Of a DNA stretch of 11,235 nucleotides, positions 1 through 6,781 are shown in pieces (within the stretch, counting starts at the first letter, position 1; each line of letters starts with the position of its first letter). Origin of the DNA: an uncultured delta proteobacterium (lineage in GTDB: Bacteria > RBG-13-61-14 > DRUE01); contig CAIYYW010000202.1 in NCBI GenBank assembly GCA_903930515.1, forward strand, positions 1 to 11,235, written 5' to 3'. Made by a program: the position numbers and the translations under genes. The notes below the pieces were generated by a model. That model saw only the letters and a list, made by a program, of their open reading frames with translations. It was not told the DNA's origin and did no database searches.

Positions 1-117
1 ACTTTCCTGGAACATACCTGCCTCAAGGCAGGTCTCCCGCCCGACGCCTGGAAGGATCCGGCCACCCGGATTGAAATTTTCAGCGCGGAAGTCTTCAACG
101 ACAAGGACCTGGAATGA
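1..117 (+). CDS. C-terminal end of an unrecognised protein (5' end outside window)
   Basis: An open frame enters from the left edge, encodes about 38 residues and stops at TGA 115-117. The codons end mostly in G or C, like the downstream genes. The stop overlaps the holB start in an ATGA arrangement, which implies translational coupling, so this is very likely the preceding gene of the same operon. The tail contains LPPDAWKDPATRIEIFSAEV. In many bacteria the gene before holB is tmk, but this tail does not resemble a thymidylate kinase C-terminus that I recognise, so I assign no function. Confidence 0.6.
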   Translation, partial: TFLEHTCLKAGLPPDAWKDPATRIEIFSAEVFNDKDLE

Positions 118-1067
118 TCAACGCCTTCGGCCAGATTGAGCAAAACCTTTCCCAAGCCATCAGCCGCAACCGGATCGCACACGCTTACCTGTTCCTGGGG
201 CCGAGGGCGGCCGGAAAGTTTCAATTCGCGCTCCGCTTCGCCCAGGCCCTGATCTGCGAGCGGAAAAATTTTCCTCCCTGCGGGGATTGCCCGGATTGCA
301 AGCAGATCCAGGCGCGGACCCACCCGGACCTGCATCTCCTGGAAGTGGAGCCGGACGAGGACCAGATCAAGATTAACGCGGTGCGCGAATTTCAAAAGCT
401 GCTCAGCCTTCGTCCATTCCAGGCAAGATGGAAAGTGGGGATCATCAAGGATGCGGAAAATCTGACCATCCAGGCGATGAACGCCCTGCTCAAGACCCTG
501 GAAGAGCCTTTGCCCAATACGGTTTTGATCCTGACCAGCTCCAACCGCAGCCGGCTTCTTCCCACCGTGGTCTCCCGGTGCCAGACCCTCCGTTTCCCGC
601 CGGTGAAAACCGAGTTGCTGGTGGAGATTTTATTGAGGGAGCAAAAACTTTCCCCGGAAAAGGCCAGGCTGGTCGCGTATTACGCCGAGGGCAGCCTGGA
701 AAAAATAGACCAGCTGGTCCCCCTGATGGAGCAACGGCGTAAGTTCCTGGAAAACTGGCTCAATGTTCCTTCCCAGAATGCCGTGGCCGGGTTCGAACTG
801 GTACAGGGCCAGTCCTTCACCAAGAACCTCGGGAAATATTTGGAATTCTTCATCAACTGGTACCGGGACCTGGTCCGGGTCAAGGTGAAGCTGAGCCCGG
901 AATTCAATCCGGACTTTGAAGTGGAGTTAACGGCCGAGGCGCAGCGGCTGAGCCTGGAGCGGATTATGGCCGGACTGGATCTTCTGCTAAGATTGGAAGA
1001 GCAAATGATCAGCTATCATTTAAACGCGTCCACCGTGGGCGAACAAATCTTTTTTGAGTTAAGGTGA
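114..1067 (+). CDS. holB: DNA polymerase III subunit delta' (clamp-loader AAA+ subunit)
   Basis: A 317-residue cytoplasmic protein of the clamp loader, which opens the beta sliding clamp and loads it on primed DNA. Visible motifs, in order: a P-loop GPRAAGK at residues 29-35; a four-cysteine zinc module C48, C56, C59, C62 (CGDCPDC core); a Walker-B-like strand ending KDAEN around 112-116; the NALLKTLEEP helix at 123-132, typical of gamma/delta' proteins; and the sensor-1 SRC motif at 154-156. Length is normal for the family. The P-loop has Ala where GPxGxGK normally has its middle Gly. Delta' subunits are often poor or non-functional ATPases, so this fits a structural role. The start is the ATG in the ATGA overlap with the upstream gene, and a RicT-like gene follows after 4 bases. 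The family call is strong. The cysteine module and SRC motif separate it from DnaX, which is also longer. Confidence 0.93.
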   Translation: MINAFGQIEQNLSQAISRNRIAHAYLFLGPRAAGKFQFALRFAQALICERKNFPPCGDCPDCKQIQARTHPDLHLLEVEPDEDQIKINAVREFQKLLSLRPFQARWKVGIIKDAENLTIQAMNALLKTLEEPLPNTVLILTSSNRSRLLPTVVSRCQTLRFPPVKTELLVEILLREQKLSPEKARLVAYYAEGSLEKIDQLVPLMEQRRKFLENWLNVPSQNAVAGFELVQGQSFTKNLGKYLEFFINWYRDLVRVKVKLSPEFNPDFEVELTAEAQRLSLERIMAGLDLLLRLEEQMISYHLNASTVGEQIFFELR

Positions 1068-1071
1068 AAAA

Positions 1072-1965
1072 ATGAGTGATCAGGAAAAACCGACTCCCCC
1101 GGTCACGGAGGAGCTCAAGGAAAAGAGATTGGTCGGGGTGAAATTCCGGCACGCGGGCAAGACCTATTTTTTTGAAGCCGGCCGGAACGAGTATTGTTAT
1201 GGGGATATGGTGATCGTGGAGACCGAGAGCGGGCTGTCCCTGGCCCGGATCATCACCCCGGTCTGCCTGATCCCTCTTACTCAATGCCCCAAGAACCTGC
1301 GGCAGGTTTTAAGGAAAGCCACCCGGGGGGATTTGGAGCGCGCTGAAAAAAACCGGGAGCGCGAGGGAAGGGCTTTTGAATTCTGCCAGTCCCGGATCCA
1401 TGAGCACAAGCTGGATATGAAACTGGTGCGGGTGGAATATCTCCACGACGGCAGCCGCGCGATTTTTTATTACACCGCGGCGCAGCGGGTGGACTTCCGG
1501 GAGTTGGTCAAGGATCTGGCCCACGACCTCCATACCCGGATCGAGATGCGCCAGATCGGAGTGCGGGACGAGTCAAAGCTGATCGGAGGGCTGGGCAGCT
1601 GCGGACGGGTTCTCTGCTGCGCGAGTTTCCTCACCGAGTTCGCCTCGGTCTCGGTCAAGATGGTGAAGGACCAGAACCTGGCGATGAACCCGGCCAAGGT
1701 GAGCGGGTTGTGCGGGAGGCTGATGTGCTGCCTGGCCTTTGAGCATTGCATCTATCAGGAGTTGATCGGGCAGATGCCGCGCAAGGGTAGTTCGGTGGAA
1801 ACCCCGGAGGGCAAGGGGAGAGTGGTTGACCTGAACCCGCTTTCTTATTCGGTCACGGTCGCGTTGGAGGAAGGGATCAAGAATTTCAAGACCGATCAGG
1901 TGAAAGAAATCACGCCGCCCCCGGAGTCTGACATCCCCGACGAATTGAAAAAGCTTGAGGAGTAG
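1072..1965 (+). CDS. ricT: PSP1 domain protein, RicT/YaaT-like
   Basis: A 297-residue protein of the PSP1 family. In Bacillus subtilis the relative RicT (YaaT) joins RicA and RicF in a complex that binds iron-sulfur clusters and promotes RNase Y-dependent mRNA processing; it also affects sporulation and competence. The N-terminal half (about 20-165) carries the PSP1 fold, with the YGDMVIVET stretch and the RVEYLHDGSRAIFYYTA strand pair. The conserved cysteine-rich region follows, with C177, C182, C183 in GSCGRVLCC and C214, C219, C220 in GLCGRLMCC, plus C226. These are candidate cluster ligands. A short C-terminal beta region (about 235-285) follows. The start ATG is preceded by AAGGTG, which overlaps the holB stop. 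Position between holB and metG matches the operon order known elsewhere. No RicA or RicF partner is in the window, so the RNase Y link is inferred from the family only. Confidence 0.88.
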   Translation: MSDQEKPTPPVTEELKEKRLVGVKFRHAGKTYFFEAGRNEYCYGDMVIVETESGLSLARIITPVCLIPLTQCPKNLRQVLRKATRGDLERAEKNREREGRAFEFCQSRIHEHKLDMKLVRVEYLHDGSRAIFYYTAAQRVDFRELVKDLAHDLHTRIEMRQIGVRDESKLIGGLGSCGRVLCCASFLTEFASVSVKMVKDQNLAMNPAKVSGLCGRLMCCLAFEHCIYQELIGQMPRKGSSVETPEGKGRVVDLNPLSYSVTVALEEGIKNFKTDQVKEITPPPESDIPDELKKLEE

Positions 1966-1968
1966 CGG

Positions 1969-3504
1969 ATGGGGAAGTTTTATGTGACCACCCCGATATA
2001 TTATGTGAACGATGTCCCGCACATCGGACACGCCTACACCACGGTGGCCGCGGACGCGCTCGCCCGTTACTGGAAACTGAAGGGAGAAAAAGTCTGCTTT
2101 CTCACCGGCACCGACGAGCACGGCCTGAAGATGCAGCGGGCCGCTCAGGAGAAGGGGATCACCCCCCAGGAACTGGCCGACCGGAACTCCGAACAATTCA
2201 AGCGCTTGTGGGAAAAGATGAACATCGGATATGACGACTTCATCCGGACCACCGAAGAGCGGCATATGAAAACGGTGAGCGCTTTTGTGGACCGGCTGAT
2301 CAAAGCGGACGACATCTACCTGGGGGAATATGAGGACTGGTATTGCGTTCCCGATGAAACCTATTGGACCGAGACCCAACTGTTGCCGGGCCGGCTCTGC
2401 CCGAACTGCAAGCGGCCGGTGGAGCTGTTGAAAGAGCCGAGCTATTTTTTCCGGATGAGCAAATACCGCGACCCGCTCCTGAAGCATTTGGATCTGCACC
2501 CGGATTTTGTCCAGCCCGAGGTCCGCTGGAACGAGGTCAAGAGTTTCGTCCAAGGGGAGATCCGCGACTTGAGCATCAGCCGCACCACCTTTGACTGGGG
2601 CATCCCCATCCCGAACGCCCCGGGTCATGTCACCTATGTCTGGGTGGACGCCCTGCTCAATTACATTTCAGCGCTGGGATGGCCGGATGACCCGGAGGGT
2701 AAGTTCGCCTCATTCTGGCCGGCGGATGTTCATTTGATCGGCAAGGACATCCTGCGCCATCACGCGGTCTATTGGCCGTGCCTGTTGATGGCCGCGGGTG
2801 TGCCCCTCCCGAAAACCATTTTCGCCCATGGCTGGTGGACCAACGAGTGCCGGAAGATGAGCAAGTCGCTTCACAATTTCGTGGATCCCAATGAGATGAT
2901 TGACCAGTTCGGGCTGGACGCCTTCCGCTATTTTATGATGAGGGAGGTGGCGTTCGGTCAGGACGGAGATTTTTCCGTGACCGCTTTCAAGGGCAGGATC
3001 AATTCCGATCTGGCAAATGATTTGGGGAACCTCCTCAGTCGCGTGTGCGGGATGATCAGCCGATACCTGGACGGCAAACTACAAGGCGCCCCGGACCTGC
3101 AGGGGATTGACCGCGAGTTGGAGCAGGGCCTCGCCACGACCGACCATGAGGTTGAGCTATGTTTCAATAAATTCACCTTCCATAAGGCGCTCACGGTGAT
3201 CTGGGGGTTCATCAACCAGGTCAACAAATATATTGACACCACCGGCCCCTGGACTTTGGCCAAGGACCCGGCGAAAAAGGACCGCCTGCTCACCGTGCTC
3301 TTTTATTCCGCCGCGAGCCTGCGCGGGATCGCGATCCTGCTCTGGCCGTTCATTCCCGGGTCCGCGGAGAAAATTTGGGAACAGATCGGGCTTGTGCCCC
3401 CGCTGGTCGGGATCAACCGGGCGGAGCAGATGCCCTTCAAAACCTTCGCGCCCAAGTCGTTGATAAAAAAAGCCGAGCCTTTATTCCCGCGCATAGAAGT
3501 CTAA
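1969..3504 (+). CDS. metG: Methionyl-tRNA synthetase, short form without C-terminal tRNA-binding domain
   Basis: A 511-residue class I synthetase that charges tRNA-Met with methionine in the cytoplasm. The HIGH signature is at 18-21 in YYVNDVPHIGHAYT, and KMSKS is at 296-300 in CRKMSKSLHNFVDP. The connective-peptide knuckle has C126, D129, C144 and C147 (CVPDET... CPNCKRP). Three Cys of the single-zinc type are kept, and the second ligand position is Asp, as in the degenerate Bacillus-type VPDETF sequence. The helical anticodon-binding domain fills about 330-500. The protein ends there, so the C-terminal EMAP/Trbp111-like dimerisation domain found in B. subtilis and E. coli MetRS is absent. 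GAGGAG at 1957-1962 is a good ribosome binding site six bases before the ATG and overlaps the end of ricT. Function is certain; only the zinc state is open. Confidence 0.96.
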   Translation: MGKFYVTTPIYYVNDVPHIGHAYTTVAADALARYWKLKGEKVCFLTGTDEHGLKMQRAAQEKGITPQELADRNSEQFKRLWEKMNIGYDDFIRTTEERHMKTVSAFVDRLIKADDIYLGEYEDWYCVPDETYWTETQLLPGRLCPNCKRPVELLKEPSYFFRMSKYRDPLLKHLDLHPDFVQPEVRWNEVKSFVQGEIRDLSISRTTFDWGIPIPNAPGHVTYVWVDALLNYISALGWPDDPEGKFASFWPADVHLIGKDILRHHAVYWPCLLMAAGVPLPKTIFAHGWWTNECRKMSKSLHNFVDPNEMIDQFGLDAFRYFMMREVAFGQDGDFSVTAFKGRINSDLANDLGNLLSRVCGMISRYLDGKLQGAPDLQGIDRELEQGLATTDHEVELCFNKFTFHKALTVIWGFINQVNKYIDTTGPWTLAKDPAKKDRLLTVLFYSAASLRGIAILLWPFIPGSAEKIWEQIGLVPPLVGINRAEQMPFKTFAPKSLIKKAEPLFPRIEV

Positions 3505-3511
3505 GCCGAAA

Positions 3512-4300
3512 ATGGCTTTCCTGGTTGACAGTCACGCCCATCTTGATTTCAGGGATTTCAATTCCGACCGGGACGCGGTGATTGAACGCGCCGTGCAGGC
3601 CGGGCTGAAATGGATCGTGAGCATCGGATCCGGAGAGGGGATCGTGAGCGCGAGGCGGGCGACCAAGCTCGCGCAAGAAATTCCCATGGTCTATTCCACC
3701 GCGGCCGTCCATCCCCACGACGCCAAGATCTGGTCCGCGGAGATTGCGGACGAAATCATTCGTCTCAGCCGCGAACCAAAGCAGGTCGCGATCGGAGAGA
3801 TCGGCCTGGACTTTGCCAAGGAATATTCTCCGAGGGAAACGCAGGAGTCGGTTTTTCGCGAGCAGTTGAAAATCGCCGATCAGCTGGACCTGCCGGTGGC
3901 GATTCATTCGCGCAATGCGCACGAGGACACGATGAGGATCATCAAGGAAATGAAGCCGCAAAGAGGCGTGATGCATTGTTTCTCCGGGAGCCTGGAACTG
4001 GCGCGCGAACTGGTCAAGCTCGGGTTCTACATCTCCATTCCGGGCGTGATCACCTTCAAGAACGCGCGGGTGCTGGTGGAAGTCGCGCAGGGAATTCCCC
4101 TGGAGCGGCTCCTGATTGAAACCGACTGCCCATTCCTCACCCCCGAGCCTTTCCGGGGAAAACGAAACGAGCCCGCGTATGTCCGGTATGTGGCGGAAAA
4201 GATCGCCCAGGCCCGGGGCGTGAGCATACAAGAGGTGGGCGAAAAAACCACAGCCAATGCCGAGCAGCTGTTCGGCCTGGGCCGGGATCAAAAAATCTAA
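3512..4300 (+). CDS. tatD: TatD-family metal-dependent hydrolase (DNase)
   Basis: A 262-residue TIM-barrel metallohydrolase. TatD proteins are 3'-5' exonucleases or deoxyribonucleases linked to DNA repair and fragmentation. All usual metal-site motifs are present: DSHAHLDF with H8 and H10; GEIGLDF with E96; HSRNAHED with H132; MHCFSGS with H155; ETDCPFLTP with D205. Length is typical. It starts 7 bases after metG with no clear Shine-Dalgarno, so translation may depend on coupling. Its stop codon overlaps the end of the convergent vapC by four bases. The last 18 codons (4241-4294) occur a second time at 5064-5117, so this gene's 3' end may be hybrid or imported, although the reading frame is intact and ends normally. 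Family is certain; the exact substrate is not shown. Confidence 0.93.
   Translation: MAFLVDSHAHLDFRDFNSDRDAVIERAVQAGLKWIVSIGSGEGIVSARRATKLAQEIPMVYSTAAVHPHDAKIWSAEIADEIIRLSREPKQVAIGEIGLDFAKEYSPRETQESVFREQLKIADQLDLPVAIHSRNAHEDTMRIIKEMKPQRGVMHCFSGSLELARELVKLGFYISIPGVITFKNARVLVEVAQGIPLERLLIETDCPFLTPEPFRGKRNEPAYVRYVAEKIAQARGVSIQEVGEKTTANAEQLFGLGRDQKI
4241..4294 (+). repeat. 3'-terminal tatD segment, copy A (intact gene)
   Basis: These 54 bases code for EKTTANAEQLFGLGRDQK at residues 244-261 of TatD. They match 5064-5117 at 50 of 54 positions without gaps. The four differences fall at codons CAG/CAA, CTG/CTT, CGG/AGG and CAA/CAG, and none changes the amino acid. Copy A has one extra codon (Ile) before its stop, while copy B stops directly. 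Together the two copies bracket the vapBC island as direct repeats. Confidence 0.9.
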
Positions 4301-4692
4301 ATAATTTCTCCGGGAGTTTTTTTGCCTTTGGCGGTTTTATTGAAATCCGCATCAAAGCTGACCAGTTGCAGGTTAAACTTTTCCGCGGCTGCGTATTGAT
4401 AGGCATCATCGTAATCCAGCCCAAATTGATCCTGCGCGCTGATGATCAGATCGGTGTTCCGAGGTTCCAAGCGAATCAAGCCCACCGAGCCGTCAATGAA
4501 GGCATCCCGGATAAATTTCAGCAAATCCGCGCTTTTTTTCAACCGGATCAAAGTGATGGAAATCGAGTGAAAAGAAAAATCGGTCAGGTTGATCTTTTCG
4601 GAGGAAATTTTCGCCAAAAACTTTTCGACCTCTGCGGACCGCTCTTGATTTAACAGCCGCTCCAGCCAGACATTGGTATCAAGAAGATACAT
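4297..4692 (-). CDS. vapC: PIN-domain ribonuclease toxin, VapC-type
   Basis: A 131-residue single-domain PIN protein. VapC toxins cleave RNA with Mg2+ or Mn2+ held by acidic residues and are silenced by a cognate antitoxin. Visible: the N-terminal LLDTNVWLERLL with D5; an acidic D38 in LTDFSFHS where the second acidic ligand usually sits; LDYDDAYQYAAAEK with D93, D95, D96; and VSFDADFNKT with D114 and D116. Length is standard. It begins 11 bases after the DUF2281 antitoxin gene, in the usual antitoxin-first order, and shares that promoter. Its TAG lies in the last four bases of convergent tatD, so transcripts of the two genes overlap tail to tail. Base composition is more A/T-rich than the flanking genes, in line with horizontal acquisition. 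The catalytic set looks complete, so the toxin is probably active. Confidence 0.88.
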   Translation of the reverse strand: MYLLDTNVWLERLLNQERSAEVEKFLAKISSEKINLTDFSFHSISITLIRLKKSADLLKFIRDAFIDGSVGLIRLEPRNTDLIISAQDQFGLDYDDAYQYAAAEKFNLQLVSFDADFNKTAKGKKTPGEII

Positions 4693-4703
4693 CGCAAACT
4701 ATT

Positions 4704-4910
4704 TCAGTCTCCGCGCCATTCCAGGGCTTTTTTCTGAAGCTCCAGCGAAGTATATTGGTCGCGGTATTCCTCGAGCGCGCCGGCCCAGTCCTGGCGAAGG
4801 AACTTTCCAGGTTTCTTCGTCCGCTTCTGGAGCAAGAACTCCACAAAGTCCACAACTTCCCGCTCAAGTTCCGGCGGCAATTGATCCAACAGTTCCTTGG
4901 GAAAAGACAT
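4704..4910 (-). CDS. vapB: DUF2281-family antitoxin, VapB-type
   Basis: A 68-residue protein. The N-terminal LPPELEREVVDFVEFLLQK helix and the C-terminal DWAGALEEYRDQYTSLELQK stretch are the pattern of DUF2281 antitoxins encoded just before PIN toxins. The first part would pair as a DNA-binding or dimerisation element. The C-terminal part, which carries the DWAGAL motif, would wrap the toxin; that division of labour is inferred from related pairs. ATG 4908-4910 has a strong ribosome binding site, GAGGTGA, six bases upstream. The TGA is 11 bases before the vapC start. Such antitoxins usually repress their own promoter, and a plausible promoter lies directly upstream. Confidence 0.85.
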   Translation of the reverse strand: MSFPKELLDQLPPELEREVVDFVEFLLQKRTKKPGKFLRQDWAGALEEYRDQYTSLELQKKALEWRGD

Positions 4911-4916
4911 CTTATC

Positions 4917-4923
4917 TCACCTC
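4917..4923 (-). promoter_or_regulatory. Ribosome binding site of the antitoxin gene
   Basis: On the - strand this reads GAGGTGA, six bases before the vapB ATG. It is the strongest Shine-Dalgarno in the region and fits the high antitoxin synthesis that such pairs need. It also fixes the start at 4910. Confidence 0.7.
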
Positions 4924-4930
4924 TATTATT

Positions 4931-4959
4931 ATTCTGGCAAATTTATGGCTCGGAGTCAA
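4931..4959 (-). promoter_or_regulatory. Candidate sigma-70-type promoter of vapBC
   Basis: Reading the - strand, a -35 box TTGACT (4959-4954) is followed by a 17-base spacer and a -10-like CAGAAT (4936-4931), about 20 bases before the antitoxin ATG. The -35 matches consensus at five of six positions, the -10 at four of six. The A/T-rich run between -10 and the start codon fits. No clear palindromic operator was found. Confidence 0.45.
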
Positions 4960-5057
4960 GGGTTCACTCTCCAAACGATTCCGCCGCAGACATGCCCCTG
5001 CACTAAACTTTTTCACCTTCCGGCGCTTTTCTTTTGGATCGGACCTATGCCAAATTC

Positions 5058-5120
5058 ATGGCGGAAAAAACCACAGCCAATGCCGAGCAACTTTTCGGCC
5101 TGGGCAGGGATCAGAAATAA
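5058..5120 (+). pseudogene. Displaced tatD 3' end (copy B)
   Basis: The reading frame ATG GCG GAA... TAA encodes MAEKTTANAEQLFGLGRDQK and stop. Residues 3-20 are identical to TatD 244-261. The four base differences from the intact gene are all synonymous, so this copy diverged inside a functional tatD gene and not as a free-drifting fragment. The frame is open upstream to a TAA at 5004-5006. The residues just before it, TYAKFMAEK, may match TatD AYVRYVAEK (222-230) if 45 bases between two GAAAA tracts were lost in frame. No Shine-Dalgarno is evident, and expression of a 20-residue peptide is unlikely. The last ten bases overlap the end of the convergent GH31 gene. Most likely this is the older tatD end, cut off when the vapBC segment arrived. 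Confidence 0.75.
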
Positions 5121-6781
5121 ATTTTCGCCTCAATTTTCCCGTTCTGGGGATTCAATTCCAGGAACAACTTTTGCTCGCGCTGACAGAACTCGTCTGCGCC
5201 CGCGGGTCGCGCGGCTTCGCACTCAACCTTCTTGACCGGCTTTCCCGAGGAAGAGACCGACTTGGGGGGAGCGGCAATTCCTTCCGCCAGCAAAACCACC
5301 GGCCTTTTCAGGCCCTGGGCGGAAAGCTCAATCCCATTCGCGTCTCGTTTCCAGTTTACCTTTCCGCTCAGGCCTTGCGGGTCCGAGAGATTCCTGCTCC
5401 CCTGCCCTGCCCCGGGCAAAATCCAAAAAGTATCCTGGCTCACAAAAAAAGAATTGAGCTGATGCCCGCCGAAACGCGATTTCACCCAGAGCGGGATCAA
5501 ACTGCCTTCTCTGAGATAGACCGGGAATTCTGAAAGCGGGAATCGCTGATTGATGGTCTCGCCGGTCTTGAAGGTTTTGGAAAGATCATACCAGTATCTC
5601 CAGTTCCCCTCCGGAATTTTCGCTGATATTTTTCCACCCGGCCTTTTGATCGGCGCCACAAAAATGGAATCGCCCAGGATATAATTTTCTCCCGCAACCT
5701 TCTCAACCAGACTCTTTCCCGCGGAAAACCTTTCCGGGACCAGGCTGTAAAGATACCATCTCATCTGCTCGTGCCAGACCGCGAGCAGCCGGTAAATCTC
5801 AACCGCATCCTCTCCATATTTCCACGGCCGGTGCTCGGAGTCCCCGCCGTTTTCCATAAAGGGCGCGAACGCCCCCCACTGCGCCCAGCGGATGAACACT
5901 TCCCGGTCCGGATTGCCGCTCCGGTATCCGAAGATGTCAAAGCCGGGCGAAACATATCCTGCTTTCACGCATTTCATAAAATCCCGGCGCGCGTCGCGCA
6001 TCCCGTTCCAGGTCGGGTCATGATCTCCGGTCCAGGTCATAAAGCTGACCTCGCGCGTGGCAAAGACAATATCCGGGCCGAGCCGCAAGGGGTTAGTCCA
6101 ACCCGGCAGGCCGATACTGTGTTCATTGAACTCCTCAATCCCGCGCGCCATCACCACGATCGGCTTATCGGTATGCTCCCGGCCGTAGTTGAAAAAATCA
6201 GCGTAATAGGCCCGCGAATAGGCCCTTTGTTTGGAAATGCCTCTCACGGCGACCGCGCCTTCAACCCCGTCCACCTTCCATCCGTCAATCCCCAGGTCCA
6301 AGGCCCGGTTCATAATCCCGTGCCAGTATTTGAGCGCCTCCGGGTTCTGGTAATCAATCAATCCGCCGGTTCCCTTCCACCATTTATATTTCTCCAAACC
6401 CTTGGCGAAATATCCTTTTTGCAGGTCGGATTGATAGTCCGGATTATCAGTATTGACCGCGGAGGTGATCCAAAGCAGAACCGCCAGGTCCTCGCCCTTA
6501 AGCTCCGAGATAAGCTCCCGGTAATCCGGGAACCGCTTGGGGTCAAAGATGAAATTGTTGTAATAGGTTTCCCACGGACTGTCTATGATCACCCCCGAGA
6601 TTGGAATCTCGCGGTCCTGATAGCCCTTAACCAAATCCCGCAGGCTCTGGCTGGTTGACTCGTCTTCCCAGACAATATGCCCGAAAATGAAAGCGGGATA
6701 GCTCGGAACCGTTTTCGCTTGAGCAAAGGCCAGGCTGGAGATCAGGGCCAGCCCCAGGCCGATGGAAAAAAGTTTTTTCAT
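5111..6781 (-). CDS. Secreted GH31-family glycosidase lacking the N-terminal beta-sandwich
   Basis: A 556-residue protein with a Sec signal peptide (MKKLFSIGLGLALISSLAFA, cleavage near 20-22), so it acts in the periplasm or outside. The catalytic barrel begins almost at once (about 29 on), so the mutarotase-like N-terminal domain of ordinary GH31 enzymes is missing. GH31 landmarks: the nucleophile strand IDGWKVDG with candidate D171; MTWTGDHDPTW with D253 as likely acid/base; PGFDIFGY at 279-286; RWAQWGAFAPFMENGG at 298-313; then the C-terminal beta domains with GDSIFVAPI (370-378), YWYDLSKTF and FPVYLREGSLIPL near 419-431. GH31 enzymes retain configuration and act on alpha-glucosides, alpha-xylosides, alpha-galactosides or sulfoquinovosides. 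The substrate cannot be read from sequence, but the ketouronate-type genes just upstream hint at an anionic sugar. GGGAGGGG, overlapping the preceding stop, is the ribosome binding site. The stop lies within the displaced tatD end. Confidence 0.88.
   Translation of the reverse strand: MKKLFSIGLGLALISSLAFAQAKTVPSYPAFIFGHIVWEDESTSQSLRDLVKGYQDREIPISGVIIDSPWETYYNNFIFDPKRFPDYRELISELKGEDLAVLLWITSAVNTDNPDYQSDLQKGYFAKGLEKYKWWKGTGGLIDYQNPEALKYWHGIMNRALDLGIDGWKVDGVEGAVAVRGISKQRAYSRAYYADFFNYGREHTDKPIVVMARGIEEFNEHSIGLPGWTNPLRLGPDIVFATREVSFMTWTGDHDPTWNGMRDARRDFMKCVKAGYVSPGFDIFGYRSGNPDREVFIRWAQWGAFAPFMENGGDSEHRPWKYGEDAVEIYRLLAVWHEQMRWYLYSLVPERFSAGKSLVEKVAGENYILGDSIFVAPIKRPGGKISAKIPEGNWRYWYDLSKTFKTGETINQRFPLSEFPVYLREGSLIPLWVKSRFGGHQLNSFFVSQDTFWILPGAGQGSRNLSDPQGLSGKVNWKRDANGIELSAQGLKRPVVLLAEGIAAPPKSVSSSGKPVKKVECEAARPAGADEFCQREQKLFLELNPQNGKIEAKIYF

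Follow-up and report, generated by a model that had tools for sequence, protein, structure and literature searches.

A vapBC toxin-antitoxin pair between two 3' ends of tatD, probably an insertion scar of a known kind

Insertion with a long target duplication has been described for restriction-modification genes of Helicobacter. In homology-facilitated illegitimate recombination (HFIR), a small linear DNA is inserted by means of one homologous anchor and one non-homologous join (PMC3240628). HFIR has been proposed for the T6SS effector-immunity arrays of Vibrio cholerae, where the arrival of a module pushes the previous effector end back (PMC5361080). At the R.PabI locus of H. pylori, a homologous right junction and a non-homologous left junction leave a duplication that sandwiches the insert (PMC4615327). 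The arrangement described here, a vapBC pair between two copies of the 3' end of tatD, looks like a real insertion scar, but probably one of a known kind.

HFIR is known from transformation and conjugation experiments (PMC3240628), whereas the present case was inferred from one assembled genome, concerns toxin-antitoxin (TA) cargo and has an unseen donor. As in the V. cholerae T6SS arrays and in Rhs C-terminal displacement arrays, modules enter at the 3' end of a gene, the old end is moved downstream and arrays grow; the displaced ends there are the toxin's or effector's own, whereas here an unrelated housekeeping gene, still functional, is their source. The duplication at R.PabI is 1577 bp long and gene conversion-like, with an element of about 50 kb. 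Cis-mobilizable and integrative elements at gene 3' ends likewise restore the end, leave a second copy at the far side and accrete in tandem. Here, however, no recombinase was seen, there is no constant core, and 5' ends of genes are involved as well.

The window, the whole stretch of 11,235 nucleotides that was analysed, is one whole contig (G000:C202) of a metagenome-assembled genome. It was compared with G001 (apparently the CAIUDS01 record), the only genome of the same genus in the collections searched. The features of the locus are as follows.

3512–4300, plus strand: tatD (TatD-family DNase), intact, 262 aa (PF01026, E=1.4e-88; TIGR00010 over cut-off; G001 orthologue 81% identical)
4241–4300, plus strand: copy A, the 3' end of the intact tatD; its stop overlaps the vapC stop (CTAA)
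4297–4692, minus strand: vapC-like PIN-domain toxin gene (PF01850, E=2e-12; G001 has a protein 89% identical at this site)
4704–4910, minus strand: vapB-like antitoxin gene (DUF2281; PF10047, E=3e-16; weak NCBIfam TA_VapB match below cut-off)
4931–4959, minus strand: predicted sigma-70-like vapBC promoter, TTGACT-17-CAGAAT (consensus scan)
5003–5042, minus strand: remnant of the 3' end of geneX with a 1-base frameshift (unbroken alignment to L033 7492-7532, ending at 5042)
5043–5063, plus strand: junction filler of uncertain origin (best match in the geneX interior, P about 0.03 by shuffling; not convincing)
5064–5120, plus strand: copy B, probably a tatD allele's displaced 3' end, reading in frame as far as TAA 5118–5120; G001 lacks it or keeps no more than a decayed trace
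5111–6781, minus strand: convergent GH31 gene, its stop overlapping copy B (PF01055 and PF21365; orthologue G001:C150, 79% identical)

The PIN-domain toxin gene and the adjacent small antitoxin gene are co-oriented, as in a vapBC pair. Their order, domains and promoter are like those of type II vapBC (PIN and DUF2281), and from these the pair is predicted to be an ordinary type II toxin-antitoxin member; the VapC and VapB of the window fall below the NCBIfam cut-offs. The ORF listing of the window holds no site-specific recombinase between the repeats, in agreement with the first-pass annotation.

The direct repeat (4236–4294 and 5059–5117) is identical at 53 of 59 positions (BLAST E about 1e-17 within the locus). 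It includes tatD codons 244–261 (4241–4294 versus 5064–5117), 18 codons with 50 of 54 bases identical and an identical run of 26 bases. The four differences (CAG/CAA, CTG/CTT, CGG/AGG, CAA/CAG) are all silent. That the tatD end occurs twice with only silent changes had already been noted from the sequence and was confirmed here; these are not strictly the last 18 codons, since copy A has one further codon (Ile, 4295–4297) before its TAA (4298–4300), whereas in copy B the TAA (5118–5120) directly follows Lys. In addition, the fourth difference falls in bases that also encode the 3' end of the convergent GH31 gene (stop 5111–5113), so that 3 differences in 50 bases, the ones that surely concern tatD, are the safer count. 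Genome G000 contains no other copy of tatD.

In G001 the gene order is tatD-vapBC-geneX-GH31, with geneX intact (235 aa). Alignment of the window to G001 is continuous over positions 1–5042, stops there, 40 bases into the 3' end of geneX, and resumes at 5110 to run through GH31. That the right end of the insert cuts a gene that is intact in the congener had escaped the first-pass annotation. Since homology to G001 is interrupted between 5042 and 5110, copy B occupies the scar, at the right join of the insert. The GH31 gene is the original downstream neighbour of tatD. At the left join of copy B a filler of 16–21 nt was found; a GATCA match is present instead at the GH31 side. A clear second tatD tail was not found in G001, where a short resemblance beside GH31 was not significant against genomic segments.

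GeneX (L033 7492–8199, minus strand, 235 aa) has a GIY-YIG-like motif and a low-complexity C-terminal tail. A search of about 290 genomes found it only in G001 and, with 39% identity, in G031; viral contigs yielded none. Its assignment as a GIY-YIG nuclease was rejected: the sequence is motif-like (GCYVF...YVGLT), but had no Pfam, NCBIfam, PHROG, PDB or fold match, and the structural model was poor (pLDDT 44). An empty tatD site, without the island, was not found in the collections searched, whose one congener carries the island. The order relative G002 has tatD with different neighbours and therefore does not provide an empty site either.

Divergence between the window and G001 at four-fold sites is about 42–43% in tatD and about 43% in metG. 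A neutral relic dating from the genus split is expected to differ from its ancestor at about 26% of positions, compared with 3 of 50 between copies B and A; copy B is too well preserved for such a relic (P=3e-4, approximately), even when all three changes are placed in B. Copy B is either recent or belonged to a functioning gene until a short time ago. The silent-only pattern in the window has P 0.02–0.07 when unpolarised and 0.09–0.22 when polarised with G001, which assigns two of the three changes to A; by itself the silent-only argument is weak in this window. Copies A and B differ at 3 of 50 positions, A and G001 at 8, and B and G001 at 7. A and B are thus mutually closest, so the window alone does not separate a local copy from the second allele of a close relative.

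The parallels at other genes carry the case more than the window does. These loci were found partly by following leads rather than by blind design: a search for VapC relatives led to the unrelated genomes G033 and G043, a survey of DUF2281 loci to G257 and a survey of HepT loci to G011. In G033 (L163, G033:C202, 224–3971) the C-terminal part of a [2Fe-2S] subunit gene is present in three copies (two extra tails), with MntA/HEPN, vapBC and HicBA modules between and after them. In G043 (L164, G043:C1:85000-104999, 11815–18268) a DUF218 gene is followed by four extra 3' ends, all ending at the stop, which alternate with DUF2281/PIN, nucleotidyltransferase/HEPN, UPF0175 and vapBC genes. All five DUF218 copies share the same final 33 bases up to the stop, while the parts upstream differ, and the left ends of the tails vary (43, 88 and 104 nt). 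In G257, 5'-end fragments of a metallophosphoesterase gene flank vapBC and an AbiEii module.

The anatomy in G011 (L278, G011:C6:3362-13646, minus strand) is almost that of the window: downstream of gyrB lie MntA/HepT and, beyond it, 21 gyrB codons, and this second gyrB 3' end overlaps the stop of a convergent gene of 500 aa. The gyrB of the congener G376 has neither a TA module nor a second tail. Copy A in G011 matches G376 over the last 67 coding bases and copy B differs; because the region downstream of gyrB varies in its own right, G376 does not serve as a clean empty site.

Control regions contained such ends as well. In G357 (L297, G357:C35:97249-107596, minus strand, 2024–3591) a DUF1016/YhcG nuclease gene is bracketed by a displaced 56-codon methyltransferase 5' end, and in G146 a decayed 5' end of a cyclase-like gene was seen. 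Overall, gene-end scars were found in 5 of 73 TA regions and in 1–2 of 39 controls, a difference which is not significant (the survey was small, the detector noisy, and the TA cases were picked by eye from its output). Specificity of the scar for toxin-antitoxin cargo is therefore not demonstrated. No gene-end repeats accompany the other vapBC paralogues of G000 and G001.

Pooled over the loci, the differences between copies (S 54.5, N 30.5; some codon ranges were set by hand) gave a pN/pS of 0.16, and the G357 pair alone showed silent bias with P=1.3e-8. One G257 copy has no silent bias, which counts against displacement. The pooled ratio indicates that the majority of the displaced ends were those of functional alleles until a short time ago. 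Ends copied on the spot and then drifting would lack such constraint, whereas ends that were functional until the insert arrived would be expected to show it, which supports displacement. The reasoning of the first-pass annotation, that silent changes argue against a simple duplication, is thus weak for the window taken singly and is backed more strongly by the pooled loci. Its proposal that two functional alleles contributed the ends is borne out by the same anatomy and the mostly silent differences at other genes, together with a copy B too fresh for an ancient relic; the same recurrence upholds the involvement of homologous recombination in the target gene.

The anatomy of the locus, the truncated geneX, the freshness of copy B, the recurrence at other genes and the silent bias there were all shown here. 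Taking these together, we consider it somewhat more probable than not that the 3' end which the recipient's tatD originally had survives, displaced, as copy B, left by an HFIR insertion of a donor tatD end with vapBC. Two marks of HFIR are present: copy A, the in-frame end of an intact tatD, corresponds to the homologous anchor, and the non-homologous join lies where the insert ends inside geneX at 5042 and copy B starts inside tatD. Our reconstruction of the donor, of the direction, order and timing of events, and of selection runs as follows. DNA of a close relative carrying tatD, vapBC and geneX in the G001 arrangement would have entered by homologous recombination within tatD. The far end of this DNA, which lies in the final codons of geneX, would have been joined without homology into the recipient tatD, about 18–20 codons before the stop. 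The donor would thereby have supplied a working tatD end (copy A) and vapBC, and the recipient's last codons (copy B) would have stayed beside GH31. Selection for an intact tatD, and for a TA pair that is costly to lose, may have kept the product. A single event of this kind would account for the cut geneX, for the position and freshness of copy B and for its natural overlap with GH31. Against HFIR speak the mutual nearness of A and B, which a local duplication would also be predicted to give, the lack of any change of identity to G001 that would mark a crossover in tatD, the presence, at the left join of copy B, of what appears to be filler rather than clean microhomology, the absence of an empty tatD site from the collections searched, and a frequency near TA genes that is not significantly above that in controls.

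Alternatively, geneX may have been deleted in the window's own lineage and the break patched by a short copy of the nearby tatD tail, through template switching that ended at ATCA/GATCA microhomology next to GH31, after which A and B diverged. The closest relationship of A and B to each other agrees with this, as does the GATCA found in the tatD tail and again next to GH31 in G001. The remnant of geneX has diverged by only 7%, hence its loss was recent, and three silent changes are not improbable if two of them arose in a functional tatD (P 0.09–0.22). However, B-type ends elsewhere that reach the native stop exactly, under strong constraint, are left unexplained, and an in-frame stop has to lie by chance two codons beyond the join, just as a natural-looking convergent junction with GH31 has to arise by chance. 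We regard this course of events as rather unlikely.

It is improbable that a small recombinase-less (cis-mobilizable) element inserted by site-specific integration at gene 3' ends through a core site and restored the end, the repeats being attL and attR. The five identical 33-base ends in G043, with differing upstream parts, would fit such a core, and tandem accretion is typical of such elements; yet no recombinase was seen in the window, the cores differ between loci, copies occur also at gene 5' ends (G257, G357) and the left ends of the G043 tails vary. An arrival in the manner of an integrative element had been suggested at first, but evidence for a dedicated integrative element was not found. 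Finally, copy B could be a relic of an old insertion that predates the genus split and was kept similar to A by gene conversion, with a decayed copy B in G001. We hold this to be very improbable: copy B is far too well preserved for it unless conversion acted, and 50 bases are short for gene conversion. In its favour is the weak resemblance to copy B beside the GH31 gene of G001 (CTTTTCGCCTAGAGGCCGATCA), which is matched in 0.7% of shuffles but in 7% of genomic segments.

If HFIR is the correct reading, it bears on the open question of how chromosomal TA pairs that lack mobility genes move. It is possible, and we propose it only tentatively, that TA modules spread between related bacteria as cassettes that bring along a functional end of an adjacent housekeeping gene; every new arrival would displace the resident end and so build arrays of alternating tails and TA modules as in G043. 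A gene end would then act as a homology landing pad without any recombinase. Displaced gene ends would form a readable scar that gives the insertion point, the limits of the insert and, from the silent divergence, how closely donor and recipient are related; with such scars, recombinase-free spread can be tested in many genomes. In G043 the scars would order four successive arrivals.

Several further candidates were considered and set aside. Bases 5043–5058 and those immediately upstream of the repeat (TGGGCG/TGGCGG) do not convince as tatD: TYAKFM against the TatD columns gave P=0.02 and a poor TatD profile match. The duplicated tail is an unconvincing terminator: a minus-strand terminator-like match in A is lost in B, and folding was no better than that of shuffles. 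An Rfam search gave no match. A recent exchange of the whole island with G001 was rejected, as four-fold divergence in vapBC (0.25–0.33) is only mildly below that of the flanks (0.40–0.45). Repeats in G020, G023, G089, G170 and G209 (L167, L202, L207, L261, L203, L244) appear to be dispersed or intergenic and were left out of the count.

Three minor observations were made at the locus. The filler matches, at 22 of 24 bases, the 3' end of an unrelated sugar isomerase-like gene in the same genome (G000:C310:41431-41454, E 0.014), which is not convincing. The tatD-vapBC-geneX-GH31 region of G001 spans contigs C148 and C150, which share an exact overlap of 73 nt at the GH31 3' end (L124 end, L123 end); this points to a fork in the assembly, which may reflect strains that have the insert and strains that lack it. 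The non-coding stretch 4911–5042 upstream of vapB is 91–93% identical to G001, despite a four-fold divergence of about 42% nearby.
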